Below are positions 18,530 through 40,015 of a stretch of 40,300 nucleotides of DNA, piece after piece. Origin of the DNA: Pseudomonadota bacterium (GTDB lineage: Bacteria > Pseudomonadota > Gammaproteobacteria > Burkholderiales > JAJZQI01). Location: positions 1-40,300 of the forward strand of contig JAJZQI010000018.1 in NCBI GenBank assembly GCA_021851875.1, read 5' to 3'. Under the pieces are notes generated by a model. That model did not search any database. It worked only from the letters and a program-made list of their open reading frames with translations, and was not told where the DNA came from. Position 1 is the first letter of the stretch; the number at the start of each line of letters is the position of its first letter. A program made the translations under genes and the position numbers.

Positions 18530-19621
18530 TTAGTCGAGCGCGATCAGAGCCTTGCCCTGCCGCGCAAACGGATACTTCACGACGCGCGCGGACAGCAGTT
18601 TGTCGCGCACCTCCACTTTTACTTCGTCGCCTATCGCGACACCCACCGGCACACGCGCCATGGCAATGGAGCGGTTGAGCGTCGGGGCAAAACTGCCGCT
18701 GGTGATCTCGCCCGCGCCATGAGCGGTTTGCACCAGCTGGTGTCCGCGCAGCACCCCTTTGTCGAGCAGCAGCAGGCCGACCATCTGGCGTTTGACGGGG
18801 TTCTGTTCCAGCGCGGCACGGCCGATAAAGGCGCGGCCCGGCGTCAGGTCCACCGTCCAGGCCAAACCCGCTTCCAGCGGGCTGGTGTCTTCGTCCATGT
18901 CCTGGCCATACAGATTCATGCCCGCTTCCAGCCGCAGGGTATCACGTGCGCCCAGACCGGCCGGCGCCGCACCGGCAGCCGCCAGTTTGCGCCACAGACC
19001 TTCGGCCTCGGCGGCGGGCAGCATGATCTCGGTGCCATCTTCACCAGTATAGCCTGTGCGAGCCAGCATCCATTCACCGACAAAAGCGGCCTGGAAGGGC
19101 TTGAGCTTTTCGGTTGCCGCTTTTGCCTGCGGCAGCACCTGCCAGACGGTTTCCCATGCCTTGGGGCCCTGCACGGCAATCATGGCCAGTTCAGGTTTCG
19201 GCGTGATGACACAATCCGCATTGCATTCTTTGGCTTGTTGTTGCATCCAGGCCACATCCTTGTCAGCCGTGCCGGCGTTGACCACGATGCGGAAATAGTC
19301 TTCCGTAAGGAAATAAATAATCAGATCGTCGATTACGCCGCCGGCGGGATTGAGCATACAGGAATAGAGCGCCTTGCCCGCTTCCTTCAGCTTGTCGACG
19401 TTATTGGCCACCAATCCACGCAGGAAGGCTCGGGTACCGGCACCGCGAATATCCACCACACGCATGTGACTGACGTCGAACATGCCGACGCTGTTGCGCA
19501 CGGTATTATGTTCTTCGATTTGCGAACCGTAGTTGACCGGCATGTCCCAGCCGCCAAAATCGACCATGCGCGCACCCATTTCGCGGTGCACGGCGTTCAG
19601 GGGAGTCTGTTTTAAGCTCAT
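18530..19621 (-). CDS. gcvT: Aminomethyltransferase GcvT (T protein)
   Basis: The product is 363 aa. It transfers the methylene group from aminomethyl-lipoyl-GcvH to tetrahydrofolate and releases ammonia. The start [20 protein letters not shown] and [14 protein letters not shown] are typical, and [17 protein letters not shown] contains the folate-pocket region. The C-terminal barrel has [15 protein letters not shown]. Its ATG overlaps the lipA stop by four bases (ATGA). Confidence 0.97.
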
Positions 19622-20535
19622 TGTTCCTCTTCGGCAAAATAGGAGCTGCGTACCAGCGGGCCGGCCTTGACCCAGCGGAAACCCAGCTCGCGCGCCGCCT
19701 GTTCATAGGCGGCAAATTCTTCAGGATGAATGTATTCGACCACCGGCAGGTGCTGCAGCGTGGGACGCAGGTACTGACCCAGCGACACGCGCTCGACGCC
19801 GCAGGCGCGCAAGTCCTGCAGCACCGCCAGCACTTCGTCACGAGTCTCGCCCAGCCCCAGCATGAGGGCGGATTTGGCCGCCACACCCGGCTGCCGCCCG
19901 GCTTTTGTCAGCAGGTCGAGCGAACGCTGGTATTGCGAGCCTTTACGGGCGATCTTGTACAGGCGCGGCACGGTTTCGACGTTGTGACCCCACACCAGGT
20001 CGCGGCAGGTGCCGACAGGCAGATTGGCCAGCGCAGCGTTCGTCACGTCGATGGCGTTGTCCTGACAGGTGCGGAAATCGGGGGTCAGCAGCTCAATGCC
20101 GATTTGCGGGTTCTGTTCGCGCAGGGCGGTTACGGTGCCGGCGAAAATACTCACGCCGCCGTCATCGAGTTCGTCGCGATTGACCGAGGTGAGCACCACA
20201 TAGTTGAGTTGCAGATCGTTGACGGCTTTGGCCACGCGGGCGGGTTCGGTGGTATCGAGCACACCGGGACGGCCGGTTTTGACGGCGCAGAAACCGCAGG
20301 CGCGGGTGCAGGTGTCGCCCAGCAGCATGAAAGTGGCGGTACCGCGACTCCAGCATTCGCCGCGATTGGGACAACGCGCTTCCTCGCACACAGTGACAAG
20401 ACCATGACCGTGCACGGCCTGACTGGTTTTGGGGTAATGCGCGTCTTGCCCGAGATTCTGGCGAATCCAGGCAGGCATGCGCCCTACCGAGCGGGATTTG
20501 GAATAGTCGAACTGAATCGGGGCAATGGTCGTCAC
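19618..20535 (-). CDS. lipA: Lipoyl synthase
   Basis: The product is 305 aa from a GTG at 20533-20535. It is a radical-SAM enzyme that inserts two sulfurs into octanoyl groups on lipoyl domains, including GcvH. The auxiliary cluster motif is [12 protein letters not shown] and the radical-SAM motif is CTRACGFC; the conserved terminal RSS is in [14 protein letters not shown]. It is the first gene behind the glycine riboswitch, an economical arrangement because its product matures GcvH. No lipB is present in the window. Confidence 0.95.
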
Positions 20536-20557
20536 GGTTGTTTTATCCGGTTTACCC

Positions 20558-20740
20558 CTCTGTCCTGATACCTGAGAGATTAAGTGTTCTGACTGAACAC
20601 CCGTGCCCCATCGGTGTCCGGCGAAGGCCGGCGCTCTCCAGAGTTGCCTGTTCGTGCGATCCTTTGACCTGAGCGATTATGGGTTGTTTACGCCTTCGGT
20701 AGTCTGCCCAAAACAGGACACAACAGACCTTCTCTCGCAC
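20558..20740 (-). promoter_or_regulatory. Tandem glycine riboswitch (two aptamers) in the lipA-gcv leader
   Basis: Read on the minus strand, aptamer I spans 20740-20654: P1 GTGCGA/TCGCAC, P2 GTCTG/CAGAC, core ACCGAAGGCGTAAACAA, then CGCTCAGGTCAAAGGA. Aptamer II spans 20643-20558: P1 CTCTG/CAGAG, core ACACCGATGGGGCA and CTCTCAGGTATCAGGACAG. The linker is about 10 nt. These match the glycine riboswitch consensus, in which both aptamers usually cooperate to turn on glycine-cleavage genes. It ends 22 nt before the lipA GTG with no U-rich terminator between, so control is probably at translation initiation. Confidence 0.93.
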
Positions 20741-20761
20741 AACGTTCGGCAAATTCCCCGC

Positions 20762-29023: not shown

Positions 29024-30523
29024 TCACATGGTCGGCATCACCAGACTGCCGCCGCTCAACCCCGGCTCGGACGGCCAGCGGCTGGTGACCGCCTTGGTGC
29101 GGGTATAGAAATACACCCCTTCCATACCGTGCATGTGCAAATCGCCGAACAGCGAGGCCTTCCAGCCGCCGAAGGAGAAGAATGCCATGGGCACGGGAAT
29201 GGACGCATTGATGCCGACCATGCCGACCTCGATTTCGTTCTCGAAACGACGGGCGGCAGCGCCGGAGCGGGTGAAAATGGCCGTGCCGTTGCCGTAGGGG
29301 TTGCGGTTGATCATGGCCATGGCTTCATCCAGCGTATCCACGCGCAGGACGATCAGCACGGGGCCGAAAATTTCCTCGCGGTAGATATCCATTTCGGTGG
29401 TGACCTGATCGAACAGAGTCGGGCCGACATAGTAGCCGCCCTCGTGACCGGCCACTTTCATGCGACGGCCGTCGATCACCAGCCTGGCGCCCTGCGCCAC
29501 GCCGCTGTCGATCAAGGCAACAATGCGATCACGGTGCGGCGCGGAAATCACCGGCCCCATGTCGCTTTCCCTGGCCGAGCCGGCGCCCACTTTGATGGCC
29601 TTGGCCTTGTCGGCCAGCCTGGCCACCAGCGTATCGGCCACCTCGCCCACCGCCACGACGGTGGAAATGGCCATGCAGCGCTCGCCGGCCGAACCGTAAG
29701 CCGCGCCGATCAGGGCATCGACGGTGAAATCGACATCCGCATCCGGCAGCACCACTGCGTGATTCTTGGCGCCGCCCAGCGCCTGCACGCGCTTGCCGTT
29801 GGCGGCGGCGGTCTGATAGATGTATTTCGCCACCGGGGTGGAACCAACGAAGGAGATCGCGCCCACATCCGGATGATTCAGCAGCATATCGACAGCTTCC
29901 TTGTCGCCCGGCACCACATTCAACACGCCGTCCGGCAAACCCGCTTGCTTGAACAGTTCGGCCATGCGCAGGCTGCACGACGGCACTTTTTCCGACGGCT
30001 TGAGGACGAAGGTGTTGCCGCAGGCAATGGCCACCGGGAACATCCACAGCGGCACCATGACGGGGAAGTTGAACGGCGTGACGCCGGCGCACACGCCCAC
30101 CGGCTGCAGCAGGGAATGGCAGTCCACCCCGCGCCCCACGTCCTCGGCATGCTCGCCCTTGAGCAGATGCGGCACGCCGGAGGCGAATTCGATCACTTCG
30201 ATGCCGCGCTGCACGGAGCCAAGCGCATCGGCGAAAGTTTTGCCGTGTTCTTCACTGGCCAGCTGGGCCAGCTCGTGGCGATGCTGTTCCATCAGCTCGC
30301 GAAAGCGGGTGAGAATACGCGAGCGACGCAGCGGCGTAGTCGCCTTCCAGCCTGGCAAAGCCGCCTTGGCGGCGGCCACGGCGCGGTCCACATCGCCAGC
30401 CGAAGCCAGCTGCACCTGGCGGATCACCGCACCGCTGGAAGGATCATATACATCGCCCATGCGCCCGCTGGTGGCCGCATCCGTCTGGCCATTCACCCAC
30501 AAGGGCACTGTCTGCTTGCTCAT
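29024..30523 (-). CDS. mmsA: MmsA-type (methyl)malonate-semialdehyde dehydrogenase
   Basis: The product is 499 aa, an NAD-dependent aldehyde dehydrogenase of the CoA-acylating MmsA/IolA group. The catalytic Cys is in GSAGERCMAIS; VGVCAGVTPFNFPVMVPLWM and QALGGAKNHAVVLPDADVD are characteristic, and the C-terminal SFGGWKASLFGD is conserved. Classic substrates are malonate and methylmalonate semialdehyde. No valine, inositol or beta-alanine genes accompany it. It is last in a run behind a guanidine-I riboswitch, 44 bp after a creatininase gene, so here it may oxidise a small aldehyde from substituted-guanidine breakdown. That substrate is inference. Confidence 0.88.
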   Translation of the reverse strand: MSKQTVPLWVNGQTDAATSGRMGDVYDPSSGAVIRQVQLASAGDVDRAVAAAKAALPGWKATTPLRRSRILTRFRELMEQHRHELAQLASEEHGKTFADALGSVQRGIEVIEFASGVPHLLKGEHAEDVGRGVDCHSLLQPVGVCAGVTPFNFPVMVPLWMFPVAIACGNTFVLKPSEKVPSCSLRMAELFKQAGLPDGVLNVVPGDKEAVDMLLNHPDVGAISFVGSTPVAKYIYQTAAANGKRVQALGGAKNHAVVLPDADVDFTVDALIGAAYGSAGERCMAISTVVAVGEVADTLVARLADKAKAIKVGAGSARESDMGPVISAPHRDRIVALIDSGVAQGARLVIDGRRMKVAGHEGGYYVGPTLFDQVTTEMDIYREEIFGPVLIVLRVDTLDEAMAMINRNPYGNGTAIFTRSGAAARRFENEIEVGMVGINASIPVPMAFFSFGGWKASLFGDLHMHGMEGVYFYTRTKAVTSRWPSEPGLSGGSLVMPTM

Positions 30524-30567
30524 TTACTGCACTCCTGAAATTTGTTGCCTAAAACGATTACATCAAC

Positions 30568-31341
30568 TTACAAACCGAATTCCCGCCGGATGGCGGCGGC
30601 CATGTCGTCCGCCACCTGCTCGGCCATGGCCTTGCCTTTGGCCGCGTCGGCGCCCAGCGCCGAGGAAAGCACGCCGGATGGCGGCACCCATTCGGTACGG
30701 GAGGGGTACATGTCATAGGGCGGAAAATCGGCGCTCGGCTCGCGCGGAATCAGATCGAGGCGCACCAGCGACGGGTGGTAGTGCAACATCAGCGAGGTTT
30801 CCATCACCGCCGCATGCTCCAGCGCGAAACCCGGAAAGCCGTCCGGGAATACCGTCGCCAAAGTGGCTTCGGTGAGAAAATCCCAGTACTCGGTACGCAT
30901 CACACGCAAGGGCGAGCCGCTGCCGATATCACGCAGGGCCAAATCGATGCCTTCGGTCACAAACCACTGGTTTTCGTAGTGGCCGACCACCACAACCAGC
31001 TTGTCCACCCCGTGGCGGGCAAACTCGCGCACGGTATCGCGCACCGCGCTGATGATGCTTTGCGCGTCCAGGCTGGTGGTGCCGCAAAAATGCTGGCCGC
31101 CGCCGCACTTGGGCTGCGATTTGTAGCCGTAAGCCAGCGCCGGGGCGACAATGCCGTTGATCCGGCTGGCCACGCTTTCGCTCACCGAGGTGGACAGCAG
31201 GGTGTCGGTGCCCAAGGGCAAATGCGGACCATGCTGCTCCAGCGCGCCGACAGGCAAAAACACCGGCGGCTTTTCCTGTTTGATGCGCTCGGCGTAAGCC
31301 AGCCAGCTCATGCGATCCATACGCACTTCAATATCACTCAT
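30568..31341 (-). CDS. Creatininase (creatinine amidohydrolase) or close relative
   Basis: The product is 257 aa from ATG 31339-31341, preceded by AAGGA; the frame to 31413 overlaps the upstream gene. Creatininase opens the cyclic guanidine creatinine to creatine. Metal-ligand residues are present at equivalent positions: E35, H37 and D46 in GALEQHGPHLPLGTD, and H121 and E123 in GHYEN. YGYKSQPKCGGGQHF, GTTSLD, EGIDLALR, EYWDF, ETSLML and FPPYDMYP align closely with Pseudomonas creatininase, much more than with generic family members. One substrate-pocket Trp (W174 in Pseudomonas numbering) is Phe172 here, so the substrate may differ. No creatinase gene is nearby. It is the fifth gene of the guanidine-riboswitch run. 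Confidence 0.8.
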   Translation of the reverse strand: MSDIEVRMDRMSWLAYAERIKQEKPPVFLPVGALEQHGPHLPLGTDTLLSTSVSESVASRINGIVAPALAYGYKSQPKCGGGQHFCGTTSLDAQSIISAVRDTVREFARHGVDKLVVVVGHYENQWFVTEGIDLALRDIGSGSPLRVMRTEYWDFLTEATLATVFPDGFPGFALEHAAVMETSLMLHYHPSLVRLDLIPREPSADFPPYDMYPSRTEWVPPSGVLSSALGADAAKGKAMAEQVADDMAAAIRREFGL

Positions 31342-31351
31342 GTTTTTTCCT

Positions 31352-32125
31352 TTATGGCATAACCGAACCGCCGTTCGGCCCCAGCGTCTGGCCGTAGTAA
31401 AAACGGCTGGCATCCGAGGCGAGAAACAATGCGGTCAGGCCGATTTCGGCCGGGTCGGCAAAGCGGTCGGCGGGAATGTCTTTTTCCTTGGCGATCCACT
31501 CCGGGCTCATGGCTTCGGTGGACAGCATGGCTGTTTCCACCGGCCCCGGGGCGATGGCATTGACGCGGATGGCCGGGGCGAACTCTTTTGCCAGCGAACG
31601 GGTCAGCCCCATCACGCCGGCCTTGGCCGCGCAATAGGGGGCATACAGCTCGCGCCCGAGGTAACCCAGATCCGAAGCAATATTGATGATGCTGCCCGAC
31701 TGGCGCGCCACCATGCCGGGCAACACAGCATGGCAGCAGAGAAACACGGCGCGCAGATCGACACCCAGTACCCGATCCCAGTCGGATTCCGTCAATGCCA
31801 GAAAGGGCTTTTCCAGAATCACCCCGGCGTTGTTGACCTGGATATCAATGGGGCCCAGCGTTTTCTCCACCACCGCCACCATGCCGCGCACGTCGGCGGA
31901 ACGGGTGACGTCGGCGGCAAACAAGGCCGCCTTGCCGTCGGCCGCCGCAATCTCATTGACCAGCTCCATCGCCGCCTCGGCCTGGTGCGGCAAATGATTG
32001 ATCGCAACGCGGGCGCCTGCATGGGCCAGAGTCAGGGCAATGGCGCGGCCGATACCGCTGGTGGCGCCGGTAACCAGCGCCGTACGGCCGGCGAGTGAAA
32101 AGGGACTGCTGTTTTTGCGCAACAT
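31352..32125 (-). CDS. Short-chain dehydrogenase/reductase
   Basis: The product is 257 aa of classical SDR type: cofactor motif TGATSGIG, NNAG, and catalytic YCAAK with an upstream Ser in INIASDLGY. The C-terminus ends QTLGPNGGSVMP. Its substrate cannot be read from sequence. In the locus it probably oxidises an alcohol or hemiaminal intermediate. It ends 10 bp before the creatininase gene. Confidence 0.85.
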   Translation of the reverse strand: MLRKNSSPFSLAGRTALVTGATSGIGRAIALTLAHAGARVAINHLPHQAEAAMELVNEIAAADGKAALFAADVTRSADVRGMVAVVEKTLGPIDIQVNNAGVILEKPFLALTESDWDRVLGVDLRAVFLCCHAVLPGMVARQSGSIINIASDLGYLGRELYAPYCAAKAGVMGLTRSLAKEFAPAIRVNAIAPGPVETAMLSTEAMSPEWIAKEKDIPADRFADPAEIGLTALFLASDASRFYYGQTLGPNGGSVMP

Positions 32126-32144
32126 AAAAAATTTCCCCGACGAT

Positions 32145-32948
32145 TCAGCTCATGACCTCGCCCAGTGCCGCGACCACCGACTCACCGGTAATGGCACGGG
32201 CATCGTCCGAGGCCAAAAACAGATACAAGCCGGCAATGTCGGCCGGTTCCAGCAGGCGCGGCATGGCCTGCGCAGCGACAATGTGCTGCAGCTCCTCTTC
32301 CACACTGCGGCCGTGCGTTTCCGCCATCGCCAGGGCCGAACGCAGCGCCGCTTCGGTCTTCACCCAGCCGGGACAGACGGCATTGACGCGAATGCCGCGC
32401 GGCCCCAATTCCCACGCCAGCGAACGGGTGAGACCGATGATGGCGTGCTTGCTGGCGACATAGGCGGAAAAGTGCGGCACCCCCATCTTGCCCCAGATGG
32501 AGGCCTGGTTGATGACAGCCGAGCCGGCGGCCATCGCGGGCAGCAAGGCCCGGGTAAGACGGAATATGGTGCTGACGTTGTTGTCCACCAGCCGGCTCCA
32601 GCTGGCATCCACATCAACGGGGGGAATGCGCGGCGGCGCGTCGATGGGAGTGGGATACTCGATACCGGCATTGTTGACCAGCACCCGCAGCTCGCCGCCG
32701 TCCCGTACCTCGGCGGCAAACTGTGCCACGGCGGCGGCATCGCCCAGGTCGACGGCGTGGGTTGCCACTGTCGCCCTGGCGGACAATTTTTCCGCCGCTG
32801 CGGCAAGCGCCGCGTCATCCCGATCCAGCAGAATCAGGCTGGCGCCTTCGGCGGCAAAGGCCTCGGCAATACCCAGACCAATGCCGCGGGCCGCACCGGT
32901 GATCAGTGCCCGCTGCCCGGCGAGACCGTAGCGATTCTTGCGTGCCAT
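32145..32948 (-). CDS. Short-chain dehydrogenase/reductase, probably NAD-dependent
   Basis: The product is 267 aa: TGAARGIG, Asp at the end of beta-2 (LILLDRDD) favouring NAD over NADP, NNAG and YVASK. It shares little beyond family motifs with the adjacent SDR, so the two are not a recent duplication. Its ATG lies one base after the stop of the desaturase-like gene, so translation is probably coupled, which suggests it acts on that enzyme's hydroxylated product. Confidence 0.85.
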   Translation of the reverse strand: MARKNRYGLAGQRALITGAARGIGLGIAEAFAAEGASLILLDRDDAALAAAAEKLSARATVATHAVDLGDAAAVAQFAAEVRDGGELRVLVNNAGIEYPTPIDAPPRIPPVDVDASWSRLVDNNVSTIFRLTRALLPAMAAGSAVINQASIWGKMGVPHFSAYVASKHAIIGLTRSLAWELGPRGIRVNAVCPGWVKTEAALRSALAMAETHGRSVEEELQHIVAAQAMPRLLEPADIAGLYLFLASDDARAITGESVVAALGEVMS

Positions 32949-32949
32949 G

Positions 32950-33966
32950 TCACACCGCCGTCAGGAAGGAAACGCCCACCGCGCCCTTGAAACCGGCCGC
33001 CTTGTCCGGTCCGCTGCCTTCCACTCGGCCGTAGTCGTCGGCCAGGATGCGGCTGACGCGGTAATGATGAAAATTGACCAGCAGCGTGCGCATGGGAATG
33101 GTCTGCACGTGCTCGGGCGGAAACAGATCGGCATGCAACTTGGGCAGCTGATACCAGGGCGCGGCCGGCTTCTCGTGATGGGCATTGTGATAGGAGAAAT
33201 TCAGCAGCAGCAGATTGAGCAGCGGATGCGCCAGCGACACCACATTGCTGTAGGTGTTGCTCTGCTCGTAATCGCGGTCGCGCACCTTGTCATCGGGGAT
33301 GGCGCCGCCTTCCAGAATGGCGAAGGCGTCGTAGGTGTGCTGGTACGCATCGGTAAAACGCAGCACGGTCAGCATGATCATGTAGCTCACGCCGTACAGC
33401 AGCAGCGCCAGTTTGGACACCCAGGCCAGCAGCGCAAAAGCAGCGATACGCACGGCCAGGATGACCAGCAGGCGGCCGCGCTCCTTGTGACGTTCGGCCT
33501 TGATGAACGGCAGCACCATCACGTAGGTGTGCATGATCAGTTCAACCGCCGGCACATAGGCCCATTCCAGCAGCAGCACCAGCTTGCGGAACCAGGCGGG
33601 GGAGGCCTTGAGGAAGGCTTTGAAATCGAAGGTGATCACGTCCGCGCGGTCGACGTGATGACGCATGTGTTTGCGGCGCAGGTGCTGGAAATCGGCATAG
33701 CAGGCACCGGTGATCCAGGTGGTGAGCACACCCCAGCGTTCATTGAGCTCGCGGGTCTTGAATATGCTCTGGTGAGCGAATTCGTGAAACAGATAGGCGC
33801 TGATGACGAGCGTATGCGCCACCAGCGGCACCCCCAGCAATACCGCCACCCAGGGCGAAGGCGCGCACAGCAGGGCGATACCGAGCGGGTAGCCGATCAG
33901 CACATACGCCAGCACCAGCACGTTGGGCGTCACGCCGTCGGGATAACGAAAATAGTTTGCCAGCAT
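32950..33966 (-). CDS. Membrane fatty-acid-desaturase-superfamily di-iron oxygenase
   Basis: The product is 338 aa from ATG 33964-33966; a longer frame starting with TTG at 34008 begins inside a hairpin and is unlikely. Three His boxes are seen: HEFAHQ, HLRRKHMRHH and HNAHHE, which hold a di-iron centre in membrane desaturases and hydroxylases. Hydrophobic spans surround them (LVLAYVLIGYPLGIALL and later segments). Such enzymes hydroxylate or desaturate unactivated C-H bonds and need an electron donor, which is not encoded here. With a guanidine riboswitch and a creatininase, a lipid substrate seems less likely than an N-alkyl or alpha-carbon of a guanidino compound; that is inference. Confidence 0.8.
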   Translation of the reverse strand: MLANYFRYPDGVTPNVLVLAYVLIGYPLGIALLCAPSPWVAVLLGVPLVAHTLVISAYLFHEFAHQSIFKTRELNERWGVLTTWITGACYADFQHLRRKHMRHHVDRADVITFDFKAFLKASPAWFRKLVLLLEWAYVPAVELIMHTYVMVLPFIKAERHKERGRLLVILAVRIAAFALLAWVSKLALLLYGVSYMIMLTVLRFTDAYQHTYDAFAILEGGAIPDDKVRDRDYEQSNTYSNVVSLAHPLLNLLLLNFSYHNAHHEKPAAPWYQLPKLHADLFPPEHVQTIPMRTLLVNFHHYRVSRILADDYGRVEGSGPDKAAGFKGAVGVSFLTAV

Positions 33967-33996
33967 GGTTTTCAGCCTTTTCAAAACATCCGGCCA

Positions 33997-34016
33997 GGCG
34001 GGTGCCAAGACCCGCC
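33997..34016 (-). terminator. Hairpin between the binding-protein gene and the desaturase gene
   Basis: GGCGGGT (33997-34003) and ACCCGCC (34010-34016) form a 7-bp stem in the 72-bp gap. Hairpins after a binding-protein gene often act as partial terminators or RNA stabilisers that raise its expression over downstream genes. There is no T tract. Confidence 0.5.
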
Positions 34017-34038
34017 CAGACCGGGCATGTTCACGCCA

Positions 34039-35043
34039 TTACTTGGCGGTCATTGCCTTGACGAACTGGCCGTCGAAGGTTTCTTCGGTGGCTGGAATGC
34101 GCTTGATCTGGCCCTTGGCCTTGAGGATCTCGCCGATCAGGCTGCCGCTGGTGTAGAAGGAGGTGGTGTCCTTGCTTTTGGCAAACACGGTGGGCATTTC
34201 CTGCAGGGTCAGGTTATGCACGCCGGCCATCTGGGCTTTGACATCGTCCGCACTCACGCCCAGCACCTTGCCGATGATCTTGTTGGCGGCTTCCGGGTTT
34301 TTCTTCATGTATTCCAGACCATCCAGATAAGACTGGATCGCAGCCTTTACGGCATCCGGATGCGCCTTGATGTATTTGGGCGGGAACACCAGCACGTCGG
34401 TGATCAGACCCGGCGCCTGCTTGGAGGAATACACCACGTGGTATTTGCCCTTGCCCTGCGACAGAATCTGGGAAACATTCGGCTCGTAGGTCACACCGAT
34501 TTTGACGCTGCCTGACACCATGGCCGCCGGAATCGCCTCGGGCGTCATGTTGACCGGCTGGATGGCCTTATCGGTCAAACCGTGGCTCTTCAGCGCGTAG
34601 GACAGCAAAAAGTCGGAGGGAGACAGCTGATTGAAGGCGATTTTCTTACCGGCAAACTCTTTCACATCCTTGATGTCGCTGGTGGCCACGATGGCATCGC
34701 CGCCGGCGGAGTAGTCGATCGGCATCACCACCTGCTGCGCATCGCCCTGGGCGACTGCGCCGATCACCTGATCGTAGGTCAGCATGCCGCCCTCAACCGC
34801 GCCGCCGGCAATGGCAGGCGGAATCAGCGCAGGGTCGTTGAACATCTGCAGCTTGACGTCCAGGCCATGCTTTTTGAACATGCCCATGGCGTCGGCGACA
34901 TAGAAGGGACCATAGCCGATCCACACACAGGTACCGATTTTCATCGGCGTGGCGGCGGCATGAACGGGAGCAGACAATACGGATGCCGCCAGTGCGGCAG
35001 TGACGGTCAGGGTACGAACGGACTTGCGGACAATAGATCGCAT
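34039..35043 (-). CDS. NitT/TauT-type (NMT1-like) ABC substrate-binding protein
   Basis: The product is 334 aa from ATG 35041-35043, with GAGGAGA seven bases upstream; the frame extends to 35193 but that segment is riboswitch RNA. A Sec signal peptide (residues 1-29, ending PVHA) precedes a periplasmic NMT1/SsuA-like domain: MKIGTCVWIGYGPFYVADAM, GLDVKLQMFND, DIKDVKEFAGKKIAFN and VFPPKYIKAHPDAVKAAI. Related proteins downstream of guanidine-I riboswitches belong to nitrate/taurine-type ABC systems. No permease or ATPase gene is in the window, so it must share them or they are encoded elsewhere. It is first behind the riboswitch. Confidence 0.87.
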   Translation of the reverse strand: MRSIVRKSVRTLTVTAALAASVLSAPVHAAATPMKIGTCVWIGYGPFYVADAMGMFKKHGLDVKLQMFNDPALIPPAIAGGAVEGGMLTYDQVIGAVAQGDAQQVVMPIDYSAGGDAIVATSDIKDVKEFAGKKIAFNQLSPSDFLLSYALKSHGLTDKAIQPVNMTPEAIPAAMVSGSVKIGVTYEPNVSQILSQGKGKYHVVYSSKQAPGLITDVLVFPPKYIKAHPDAVKAAIQSYLDGLEYMKKNPEAANKIIGKVLGVSADDVKAQMAGVHNLTLQEMPTVFAKSKDTTSFYTSGSLIGEILKAKGQIKRIPATEETFDGQFVKAMTAK

Positions 35044-35090
35044 AACAAACTCTCCTCGGTAGGAAATGACAATAGCGGGGAGACGGTTTC

Positions 35091-35190
35091 GTTCTCCCGG
35101 GCTTTTATCCCTCCGTGGAGCTCCAGCCAACTGGAGCCGGCTGCTCTCGGACCAGACATCCTTGCGGACCGGAACCCTAGTAGCCATTGT
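35091..35190 (-). promoter_or_regulatory. Guanidine-I (ykkC) riboswitch
   Basis: On the minus strand the leader contains, in order, CTAGGGTTCCGG, CTGGTCCGAGAG, a variable hairpin (GGCTCCAGTTGGCTGGAGC), and ACGGAGGGATAAAAGCCC followed by GGGAGA. These are the conserved blocks of the ykkC subtype-1 aptamer, which senses free guanidine. A segment TCTCCC (35077-35083) can pair with the aptamer's GGGAGA or with the ribosome-binding site GGAGA (35051-35057), suggesting translational control of the binding-protein gene; which state is on cannot be told by eye. The distal ATG is 48 nt after the aptamer. Confidence 0.92.
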
Positions 35191-35260
35191 CAAATGCGAG
35201 TCAAGCGCGAAAGTCTTGCGCCGAAATCAGGCAAAACCGCTCACCCCTCAGAACACAATA

Positions 35261-35276
35261 GCAACACGCGTGCCAA
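35261..35276 (-). promoter_or_regulatory. Sigma-54 promoter for the guanidine locus
   Basis: On the minus strand TTGGCACGCGTGTTGC matches the -24/-12 consensus (TGGCACG, four bases, TTGC) exactly, followed by T. The predicted start is near 35250, about 60 nt ahead of the riboswitch. Sigma-54 control with an enhancer protein such as NtrC would make the operon respond to nitrogen limitation. Confidence 0.85.
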
Positions 35277-35351
35277 CACCACAAAATACAATCAATACAC
35301 TGATTTATAATAAGTATTTATAAATGCCCGGAAACGCCCGACAGCCCCAAA

Positions 35352-35368
35352 TGCCTGATCAGGGTGCA
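35352..35368 (-). promoter_or_regulatory. Candidate NtrC-type enhancer site upstream of the guanidine locus
   Basis: On the minus strand TGCACCCTGATCAGGCA resembles the NtrC dyad (TGCACCA, three bases, TGGTGCA) with one strong and one weak half-site. It lies about 80 bp upstream of the -24 element, a suitable distance for an enhancer. A further GGTGC half-site is near 35383. Confidence 0.4.
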
Positions 35369-35525
35369 ACCAACAAATGAACGGCACCATCTTTGTTCAC
35401 ACTTTGTTCATACCCTGCCTCATCCAGCCGGCCAGGCTGGCAATTTTCTTGACTTTTATCTACAGCCGGAAATGCTTCACCCCTGCCGGGACAATTTTCC
35501 CTTACTGCAGACCGACTTGCCTCAC

Positions 35526-38758: not shown

Positions 38759-38775
38759 TTGGCACACATATTGCT
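38759..38775 (+). promoter_or_regulatory. Sigma-54 promoter for amt
   Basis: TTGGCAC (38759-38765), five bases, then TTGCT (38771-38775) is an exact -24/-12 pair. The predicted start is near 38785, about 28 bases before the amt ATG. With the NtrC dyads this means induction under nitrogen limitation. Confidence 0.9.
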
Positions 38776-38812: not shown

Positions 38813-40015
38813 ATGGAAAATTTAAAATACGGCAGTGACGTTCTTTTCATTCTGCTTGGCGCCATCATGGTGCTGGCCATGCACGCAGGTTTCGCCTTTC
38901 TCGAGCTGGGCACGGTCCGACGCAAAAACCAGGTCAATGCGCTGGTCAAAATCCTCACCGATTTCGCCATCTCGACCATTGCCTATTTCTTCATCGGCTA
39001 CAGCATTGCCTATGGCGTCAGCTTCTTCAGCGGCGCCGAGGTTCTGACACAGAAGAACGGCTACGAGCTGGTCAAATTCTTTTTCCTGCTGACCTTTGCC
39101 GCCGCCATTCCCGCGATCATTTCCGGCGGCATCGCCGAGCGCGCCAAGTTCAACCCGCAAATGGCCGCCACTTTCGTGCTGGTCGGCTTCGTCTATCCCT
39201 TCTACGAAGGCATTGTCTGGAACAATCACTTTGGCGTACAAGACTGGCTGGCCGTCCAGCTGGGCGCCAAATTCCATGACTTCGCCGGCTCCGTCGTCGT
39301 TCATGCCATGGGCGGCTGGCTGGCACTGGGCGCCGTGATCATGCTGGGCGCACGCCGCGGCCGCTACCGCAAGGACGGCATGATTTCCGCCCACCCGCCC
39401 TCCAACATCCCATTCCTGGCACTGGGCGCCTGGATCCTGACGGTGGGCTGGTTCGGTTTTAACGTCATGTCCGCCCAAACCATCGATGCCGTATCCGGCC
39501 TGGTGGCCGTGAATTCGCTGATGGCGATGGTCGGCGGCATTCTGGCCGCGCTGGTTTTCGGCAAGAACGACCCCGGCTTCGTCCACAACGGTCCGCTGGC
39601 CGGTCTGGTGGCCGTCTGCGCCGGCTCCGACCTGATGCACCCGCTGGGCGCACTGCTTACCGGCGCCATCGCCGGCGCCCTGTTCGTTTACCTGTTCACC
39701 CTGACGCAGAACAAATGGAAAATCGATGACGTACTGGGCGTGTGGCCGCTGCACGGCGTCTGCGGCGCCTGGGGCGGCATTGCCGCGGGCATTTTCGGCC
39801 TCAAATCGCTTGGCGGCATTGGCGGCGTGACCTTTGGCGCACAACTGGCCGGCACGGCGCTGGGCGTCGGCATCGGCCTGATCGGCGGCTTCGTGGTGTA
39901 CGGCGTATTGAAAGCGCTGGTCGGCATTCGCCTCGACCCCGAAGCCGAATTCGAGGGGGCAGATTTGTCGATCCACAAAATCTCCACCACTGCCGAACAC
40001 GACACCAGCTGGTAA
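38813..40015 (+). CDS. amt: Ammonium transporter (Amt family)
   Basis: The product is 400 aa with about 11 hydrophobic spans, an inner-membrane ammonium channel. The first span region MHAGFAFLELGTVRRKN is typical of the Amt branch. The pore twin-His residues are in VVHAMGGWLALG and WPLHGVCGAWGG. NNHFGVQDWL and FNVMSAQTIDAVSG are further family segments. It is unusual in having no glnK directly upstream, though its promoter carries NtrC and sigma-54 signals, so a PII partner must be elsewhere. Confidence 0.93.
   Translation: MENLKYGSDVLFILLGAIMVLAMHAGFAFLELGTVRRKNQVNALVKILTDFAISTIAYFFIGYSIAYGVSFFSGAEVLTQKNGYELVKFFFLLTFAAAIPAIISGGIAERAKFNPQMAATFVLVGFVYPFYEGIVWNNHFGVQDWLAVQLGAKFHDFAGSVVVHAMGGWLALGAVIMLGARRGRYRKDGMISAHPPSNIPFLALGAWILTVGWFGFNVMSAQTIDAVSGLVAVNSLMAMVGGILAALVFGKNDPGFVHNGPLAGLVAVCAGSDLMHPLGALLTGAIAGALFVYLFTLTQNKWKIDDVLGVWPLHGVCGAWGGIAAGIFGLKSLGGIGGVTFGAQLAGTALGVGIGLIGGFVVYGVLKALVGIRLDPEAEFEGADLSIHKISTTAEHDTSW

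Follow-up and report, generated by a model that had tools for sequence, protein, structure and literature searches.

A guanidine-riboswitch operon with a membrane hydroxylase as part of a probable guanidine-scavenging regulon in a Burkholderiales bacterium

A stretch of 40,300 nucleotides (hereafter the window; positions 1 to 40,300 of contig JAJZQI010000018.1, assembly GCA_021851875.1) from a Pseudomonadota bacterium of the Burkholderiales carries an operon behind a guanidine-I riboswitch, in which one gene encodes a membrane hydroxylase of the fatty-acid-desaturase family. We consider it probable that this operon is one third of a guanidine-scavenging regulon, with the hydroxylase driving the release of guanidine from a substituted guanidine. 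Guanidine riboswitches are common and the known guanidine-making enzymes are few, according to two recent reports (PMC12508155, PMC12186494). In 2025, hydroxylation and collapse under a guanidine riboswitch were published for methylguanidine with a different enzyme, the 2-oxoglutarate/Fe(II)-dependent (2OG/Fe(II)) hydroxylase MgdH of Vreelandella boliviensis, which works together with the lyase MgdL (PMC12508155). What is new here is a candidate for oxidative guanidine release under a guanidine riboswitch by a non-homologous membrane hydroxylase, a candidate widely conserved in Pseudomonas, Stutzerimonas, Burkholderiales, Thiobacillus, Acidithiobacillus and others. In the accessible parts of the literature on creatininases, desaturases or hydroxylases with guanidine riboswitches, we found no description of the operon, and earlier notice of the gene association is possible.

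Six co-directional minus-strand genes follow a sigma-54 promoter, TGGCACGCGTGTTGCT (35260-35275, minus strand), and a Guanidine-I aptamer (RF00442; 35092-35191, minus strand) that scores 88.9 bits against a gathering threshold of 63 (E 8e-15 over the window). In order of transcription, they encode an ABC (ATP-binding cassette) substrate-binding protein of the SsuA/NMT1 family (34039-35043); the membrane hydroxylase, presumably di-iron and the conserved core gene of the system (32950-33966; PF00487, 126.5 bits); two short-chain dehydrogenases, SDR1 (32145-32948) and SDR2 (31352-32125), assigned like the binding protein by Pfam/NCBIfam; a creatininase-family metal hydrolase with altered residues (30568-31341; TIGR04448, 362 bits, cut-off 235); and an MmsA-type CoA-acylating semialdehyde dehydrogenase (29024-30523; TIGR01722, 713.8 bits, cut-off 448.5). 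Rfam, open reading frame (ORF) and Pfam/NCBIfam evidence confirmed the arrangement described in an earlier sequence-only reading, namely six co-directional genes behind a sigma-54 promoter and a guanidine-I riboswitch.

The promoter is an exact match to the sigma-54 consensus. The window has two exact sites, where shuffled sequence leads one to expect 0.06; the second (38760-38775, plus strand) lies directly upstream of an ammonium transporter gene (38813-40015), so that both may plausibly be under nitrogen control. Across the 82 Guanidine-I sites of the window and related loci, 66 have a sigma-54-like site (at most one mismatch, within 250 bases upstream), against 1.5% of 4100 random positions. 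A hairpin, GGGAGA...UCUCCC (35077-35098, minus strand), identified from sequence and RNA fold, overlaps the 3' end of the aptamer and is probably the expression platform; no U-run follows it, suggesting a mechanism other than a classical terminator. The operon is probably switched on by guanidine, and by nitrogen limitation.

Lack of conserved linkage in other genomes had been named beforehand as one of the findings that would refute the proposal, and such linkage was found. Scanning species genomes for the hydroxylase turned up 164 relatives; the best 80 loci were used, so the set is enriched for close relatives, many from one genus. Together with 11 loci from a class-wide sample, 91 rows were read (loci carry L numbers and genomes G numbers), of which 84 extend 1.5 kb or more upstream and 69 extend 6 kb or more downstream. 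A pattern search found a same-strand Guanidine-I no more than 2.5 kb upstream of the hydroxylase in 68 of the 84 loci, and Rfam confirmed it in 13 of 13 pattern-positive sources tested; the pattern count is an undercount, as Rfam found a second Guanidine-I in L014 that the pattern had missed. Three further loci from three genomes (L101, L102 and L106), among the 16 without an upstream Guanidine-I, have a Guanidine-II riboswitch directly before the hydroxylase, so that two unrelated RNA classes are found in front of this gene. The L106 cluster also holds two Guanidine-I sites, and in L078 a Guanidine-I lies about 4 kb past the hydroxylase, on its downstream side. The typical gene order is riboswitch, binding protein, hydroxylase, SDR1, SDR2, EamA and creatininase, continuing with isochorismatase, metallohydrolase, an orphan protein, permease and ATPase; the full order stands in one operon in Pseudomonas, Stutzerimonas and Plasticicumulans.

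In the class sample, which is less biased, 12 of 369 genomes have the hydroxylase (counted present above 140 bits; 23 more genomes matched at 31 bits or less, and in G048 only a fragment is present, at the end of a contig). Guanidine-I lies directly upstream of the hydroxylase or its binding-protein gene in four of the 12 (G000, G107, G241 and G263, one of them the host of the window), and Guanidine-II directly upstream of the hydroxylase in another three (G119, G127 and G299). The carboxylase of guanidine breakdown (counted present above 500 bits, with a gap down to 462) occurs in 10 of the 12 hydroxylase genomes against 32 of 369 overall (Fisher 3e-10, uncorrected for relatedness), and Guanidine-I anywhere in the genome in six of 12 against 29 of 369 (Fisher 9e-5). 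Class-wide protein searches scored the first candidates per genome only and the RNA search used stricter filters, so absences in this sample are soft.

The host genome holds three Guanidine-I riboswitches, one before the window operon (operon B) and two before operons A and C. Operon A (C11:41202, L084) encodes an ABC permease, an ATPase, two DUF1989 proteins, a biotin carboxylase and an allophanate hydrolase. NCBIfam names the carboxylase a urea carboxylase (TIGR02712) and the DUF1989 pair UAAP1/UAAP2; on the basis of riboswitch control and the papers cited here, they are read as guanidine carboxylase and CgdA/CgdB. Operon C (C11:67869, L085) encodes a second binding protein, an EamA transporter, an isochorismatase-family hydrolase, an AiiA-like metallohydrolase and the orphan protein. 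The window binding-protein gene has no adjoining permease gene, and both this and the missing degradation genes are accounted for if operons A and C supply them in trans under the same signal. The earlier statement that typical guanidine genes are absent is therefore right for the window operon and wrong for the host genome, where the carboxylase pathway (Gca, CgdAB, AtzF) stands under its own Guanidine-I riboswitch, with guanidine that the window operon would supply (SMR exporters were not searched). The single-operon view gives way to a regulon whose two other riboswitch operons bring a lyase, a guanylurea-hydrolase-like enzyme and the carboxylase pathway. Smaller systems (L014, L024, L025, L076, L080 and L083) keep the hydroxylase, the metallohydrolase and the orphan protein, with carboxylase-pathway genes at the same locus in five of the six (L076 is short).

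The orphan protein had no sequence match in Pfam, NCBIfam or PDB. Its homologues in L096 and L097 follow a 2OG/Fe(II) dioxygenase, behind Guanidine-I, an ABC transporter, a DUF1989 pair and the carboxylase, which is the layout published for mgdH-mgdL of V. boliviensis (PMC12508155), minus the allophanate hydrolase, not found in the 16 kb read. Mutation of D49 or R51 removed MgdL activity (PMC12508155), and the L097 protein, equated with MgdL by gene order and residue numbering rather than by accession, has D and R at these catalytic positions, 49 and 51. The host orphan is 39% identical to the L097 protein (E 4e-40), and the D-x-R motif is invariant in 19 of 19 aligned rows of the family (L009 and L011 were left out of the alignments, as they have a stop codon within the stretch). 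The predicted fold of the L012 homologue is beta-rich (pLDDT 92), its best solved match being yeast YLR301w (E 7e-5, TM 0.54), and the published model of MgdL is a beta-barrel (PMC12508155). By identity, D-x-R motif and beta-rich model, the host orphan is an MgdL homologue, with predicted lyase activity.

MgdH and the membrane hydroxylase were compared across 14 genomes selected for lyase or hydroxylase, with G263 and G119 added to the 12 that gave an MgdL-family match. MgdH-like proteins occur in seven and the membrane hydroxylase in six, never together, and no MgdH match was found in any of the six membrane-hydroxylase genomes, host included. Where MgdH is present, its gene adjoins an MgdL-family gene in seven of seven genomes, none of which has the membrane hydroxylase. 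The window protein matches FA_desaturase only and not 2OG-FeII_Oxy, and is thus not homologous to MgdH by family assignment. The membrane hydroxylase appears to be a non-homologous counterpart of MgdH, taking its place beside the lyase family. The chemistry that the sequence-only reading had put forward, hydroxylation next to a guanidine nitrogen and collapse of the hemiaminal to guanidine plus an aldehyde, gains support by homology from the MgdL homologue in the regulon and from this apparent replacement of MgdH. Among the 69 loci with at least 6 kb downstream, 43 have lyase and metallohydrolase, 14 the lyase only, seven the metallohydrolase only and five neither; four of these five have divergent hydroxylases, and in the fifth, L061, tblastn gives an orphan match of 40%. 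Metallohydrolase and orphan lyase may be partly interchangeable.

Several observations weigh against this account. No guanidine riboswitch was found before the hydroxylase in L103, L104, L105 and L107, nor in eight database loci with at least 1.5 kb upstream (L020, L021, L025, L028, L070, L076, L078 and L083). Apart from the three Guanidine-II loci and L078, 12 loci remain, of which 11 were scanned (L111 was not) without a guanidine riboswitch at gathering threshold, and in nine of those 11 Rfam found none even at E <= 1. In the class sample, no riboswitch was detected upstream of the hydroxylase in four of the 12 genomes (G048 was not scanned), and the carboxylase is missing from two (G263 and G167, a soft absence). 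Within the 16 kb read at L105 and L107, the divergent hydroxylases stand without any other gene of the regulon. The genomes compared for mutual exclusion were picked rather than drawn at random, and the MgdH search did not extend to six more genomes that have the hydroxylase. The host lyase belongs to a different operon, on another contig than the hydroxylase. Among the 12 MgdL-family genomes, G084 lacks both hydroxylases, and in G213 the membrane hydroxylase is confined to another contig; no obvious oxygenase lies beside the lyase in either when ORFs were judged by eye. The seven loci with metallohydrolase and no lyase show that the lyase is not obligatory, and MgdL is specific for N-(hydroxymethyl)guanidine (PMC12508155), which makes larger substrates uncertain.

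Beyond the observed gene content, regulation signals, linkage, MgdL homology and exclusion of MgdH in the compared genomes, we infer the catalytic steps of these particular proteins, their order and their substrate as follows. Under nitrogen limitation, sigma-54 would start transcription, and guanidine bound to the riboswitch would let expression proceed. The binding protein would hand a guanidine derivative to the ABC permease and ATPase of the sister operon, and the membrane enzyme, by analogy with MgdH/MgdL, would then hydroxylate a carbon attached to a guanidine nitrogen, most likely in the methyl group of methylguanidine or in a close N-alkylguanidine; methylguanidine would be the simplest substrate. 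The MgdL-type lyase would split the resulting N-(1-hydroxyalkyl)guanidine to guanidine and an aldehyde, or the AiiA-like metallohydrolase would handle it, both enzymes coming from the third riboswitch operon. Carboxylase, CgdAB-type proteins and allophanate hydrolase would take guanidine on to ammonia, and released guanidine would keep the riboswitches on. A formaldehyde-detoxifying family, TIGR02818, is present in the host above its cut-off; the family is common, and it is the formaldehyde detoxification that such a reaction needs.

The hydroxylase itself belongs to FA_desaturase (126.5 against 29.7 bits), and nine histidines (H61/H65, H100/H103/H104, H210 and H260/H263/H264) are invariant across 24 hydroxylase sequences. 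Its structure model has a pLDDT of 88.8; phmmer against solved structures returned no match at E <= 1, and Foldseek of the model returned two chains from FtsHi motor-complex entries (E 8e-4 and 3.5e-3), with no other match below E 2, which does not help to identify the substrate. Among plasmids, the hydroxylase had a single match, distant and cyanobacterial. The Pfam family is named for lipid enzymes and the best NCBIfam resemblance is to DesA (37 bits, cut-off 500), both of which would fit a lipid desaturase serving a membrane-stress response to guanidine, with no part in guanidine metabolism. We hold this to be highly improbable. The neighbours of the gene are of kinds that would serve guanidine import, release and degradation, the enzyme appears to replace MgdH beside the lyase, the operon has a sigma-54 site that suggests nitrogen control, and the enzyme has weak similarity also to the arginine gamma-hydroxylase GntB (NF041365; 19.7 bits, cut-off 380), a related hydroxylase family that acts on a guanidino compound and of which the window enzyme is not a member. 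The gene company and the apparent replacement of MgdH led us to reject a lipid desaturase as the main explanation.

The creatininase-family protein bears on whether creatinine is the substrate. In the classical version of such a scheme, which comes near the order given in the sequence-only reading, the creatininase would open creatinine to creatine, and the hydroxylase and SDRs would act on creatine or its fragments. The protein scores well above the TIGR04448 equivalog cut-off, is 47% identical to the solved creatininase (116 of 248 aligned) and keeps E34, H36, D45, H120 and E122, which we take to be the metal ligands. Fold family and metal-site residues are shared with creatininase. In contrast, S78, W174 and D175, presumably residues of the substrate pocket in the solved enzyme, are replaced by C, F and A, and in a 13-row alignment position 78 is C (with one S), 174 is F or Y and 175 is A; a search for a creatininase with Trp174 found none. 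The subfamily also keeps W154, Y121, E177 and H178. Moreover, the usual next enzyme is missing, with no Creatinase_N protein found by protein search in the host (13 of 14 controls were positive). The creatininase here is, by sequence, a distinct subfamily, and we judge plain creatinine use to be improbable. The proposal of creatinine as the substrate is not supported.

Nor is the creatininase a core step. The count used those 61 of the 80 loci that have 6 kb or more downstream and required an identity of 40% or more for the creatininase and 45% or more for the SDRs; both are present in 49 loci, neither in 10 and the creatininase alone in two (L061 and L071), where an SDR of 43-45% identity lies divergently upstream. 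SDRs therefore accompany the creatininase in 49 of 51 loci, the distribution is that of one co-inherited module, and 10 of 61 loci have the hydroxylase without it. The SDR pair and the creatininase are probably an accessory add-on that prepares a cyclic guanidine: they would work first, on a cyclic guanidine that can be oxidised, and pass the product to the hydroxylase. The changed residues, the lack of a creatinase and the coupling to SDRs fit an oxidised cyclic guanidine better than plain creatinine as the presumed substrate. A different, distant creatininase-family protein (23-29% identity) was seen in L078, L083, L087 (host C43), L099, L104 and L106, all of them loci that hold hydroxylase or ABC transporter genes of the present kind.

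A bolder reading, which we regard as rather unlikely, is that enzymes turn creatinine or a related cyclic acylguanidine into guanidine by an oxidative route. Creatinine is chemically oxidised to creatol and then to methylguanidine (PMC3775425). In the enzymatic version, the membrane enzyme would make creatol by hydroxylation of a ring carbon, the SDRs would carry it to the imino-dione, and the re-tuned creatininase would open the ring; a guanylurea-hydrolase-like amidase would then free methylguanidine from the acylguanidine for a second hydroxylation and MgdL-type guanidine release. Such a route would call for just these enzyme types, a hydroxylase, SDRs, a ring opener like the creatininase and an amidase for acylguanidines, and the two hydroxylase paralogues found per locus in L006, L007, L026 and L078 could serve its two hydroxylations. 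Natural sources of methylguanidine have been called elusive (PMC12508155), and the route, if true, would answer where biological methylguanidine comes from.

The amidase candidate is the isochorismatase-family hydrolase of operon C, encoded outside the window operon. Plasmid CP098607 of Pseudomonas mendocina MET has one place only that matches it, with 65% identity over 97%, and we take this to be the guanylurea hydrolase BB_00025 reported from that strain. D7, K113 and C146, presumably catalytic, are invariant in 12 isochorismatase-family sequences. These likenesses would also suit a system for acyl- or carbamoyl-guanidines such as guanylurea, with this hydrolase as the key enzyme and the oxidative genes trimming side chains. 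Yet the hydrolase was not found in the operons of L014, L024, L025, L080 and L083, which keep hydroxylase, metallohydrolase and lyase, and it scores 261.5 bits with the NCBIfam biuret-hydrolase model, below the cut-off of 370; we think such a system distinctly improbable as the main explanation. The likeness to the CP098607 homologue indicates that more than one derivative probably yields guanidine through this regulon, guanidine release being the activity reported for GuuH/BB_00025 (PMC9800807) and predicted from sequence for the host enzyme.

The last gene of the window operon, MmsA, had been taken as part of the pathway and proves to be a lineage-specific extra. It follows the operon only in the window and in its nearest relative, L004 (hydroxylase 93% identical), and was found on the same strand within 9 kb in none of the 69 related loci for which 6 kb or more of downstream sequence is available. 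MmsA was also considered as pointing to malonate- or methylmalonate-semialdehyde as a product, a reading set aside for the same limited distribution. Taken as a whole, the sequence-only reading was right in kind, with creatinine unproven and MmsA outside the core.

Hydroxylase-driven guanidine release, as we favour it, shares with MgdH/MgdL of V. boliviensis the Guanidine-I control, ABC import, the guanidine carboxylase pathway, the pairing of an oxygenase with an MgdL-type lyase and the hemiaminal logic (PMC12508155). It differs in its oxygenase, a membrane FA_desaturase-family protein here and a 2OG/Fe(II) hydroxylase there, and in its extra components: an AiiA-like metallohydrolase, the SDR pair, the creatininase family, a guanylurea-hydrolase-like enzyme and an EamA transporter. 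The promoters differ too, with a sigma-54 site here and four mismatches to it at the riboswitch of the MgdH/MgdL-type locus L097. A membrane iron enzyme would thus do the job of a halophile 2-oxoglutarate dioxygenase, with a lyase family common to both. The system offers testable functions for an unnamed lyase family, a metallohydrolase and a creatininase subfamily, and may reveal sites where free guanidine and methylguanidine are produced and consumed.

Other features were seen in the related loci and in the window. The hydroxylase operons of L020, L021, L065 and L070 have no detected guanidine riboswitch (L065, cut close upstream, at gathering threshold only), and what we take to be a luciferase-like monooxygenase follows in L020 and L070. 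A glutamine-synthetase-like protein, presumably resembling gamma-glutamylmethylamide synthetase, occurs in guanidine clusters, in L106 (7468-8923, minus strand) and about 9 kb downstream of the hydroxylase in Stutzerimonas loci. A protein that we assume to be sugar-phosphate-isomerase-like follows the hydroxylase or metallohydrolase in L104 (8785-9640), L106 (5584-6420) and L077 (about 14100), and a presumed PAS/GGDEF-type signalling protein follows the metallohydrolase gene in L010 (15677-17833), L063 (13301-15532) and L072 (12692-14770). Elsewhere in the window, tandem glycine riboswitch aptamers (20551-20747, minus strand; 54.1 and 44.7 bits) lie upstream of the minus-strand ORFs 19618-20535 and 18530-19621.

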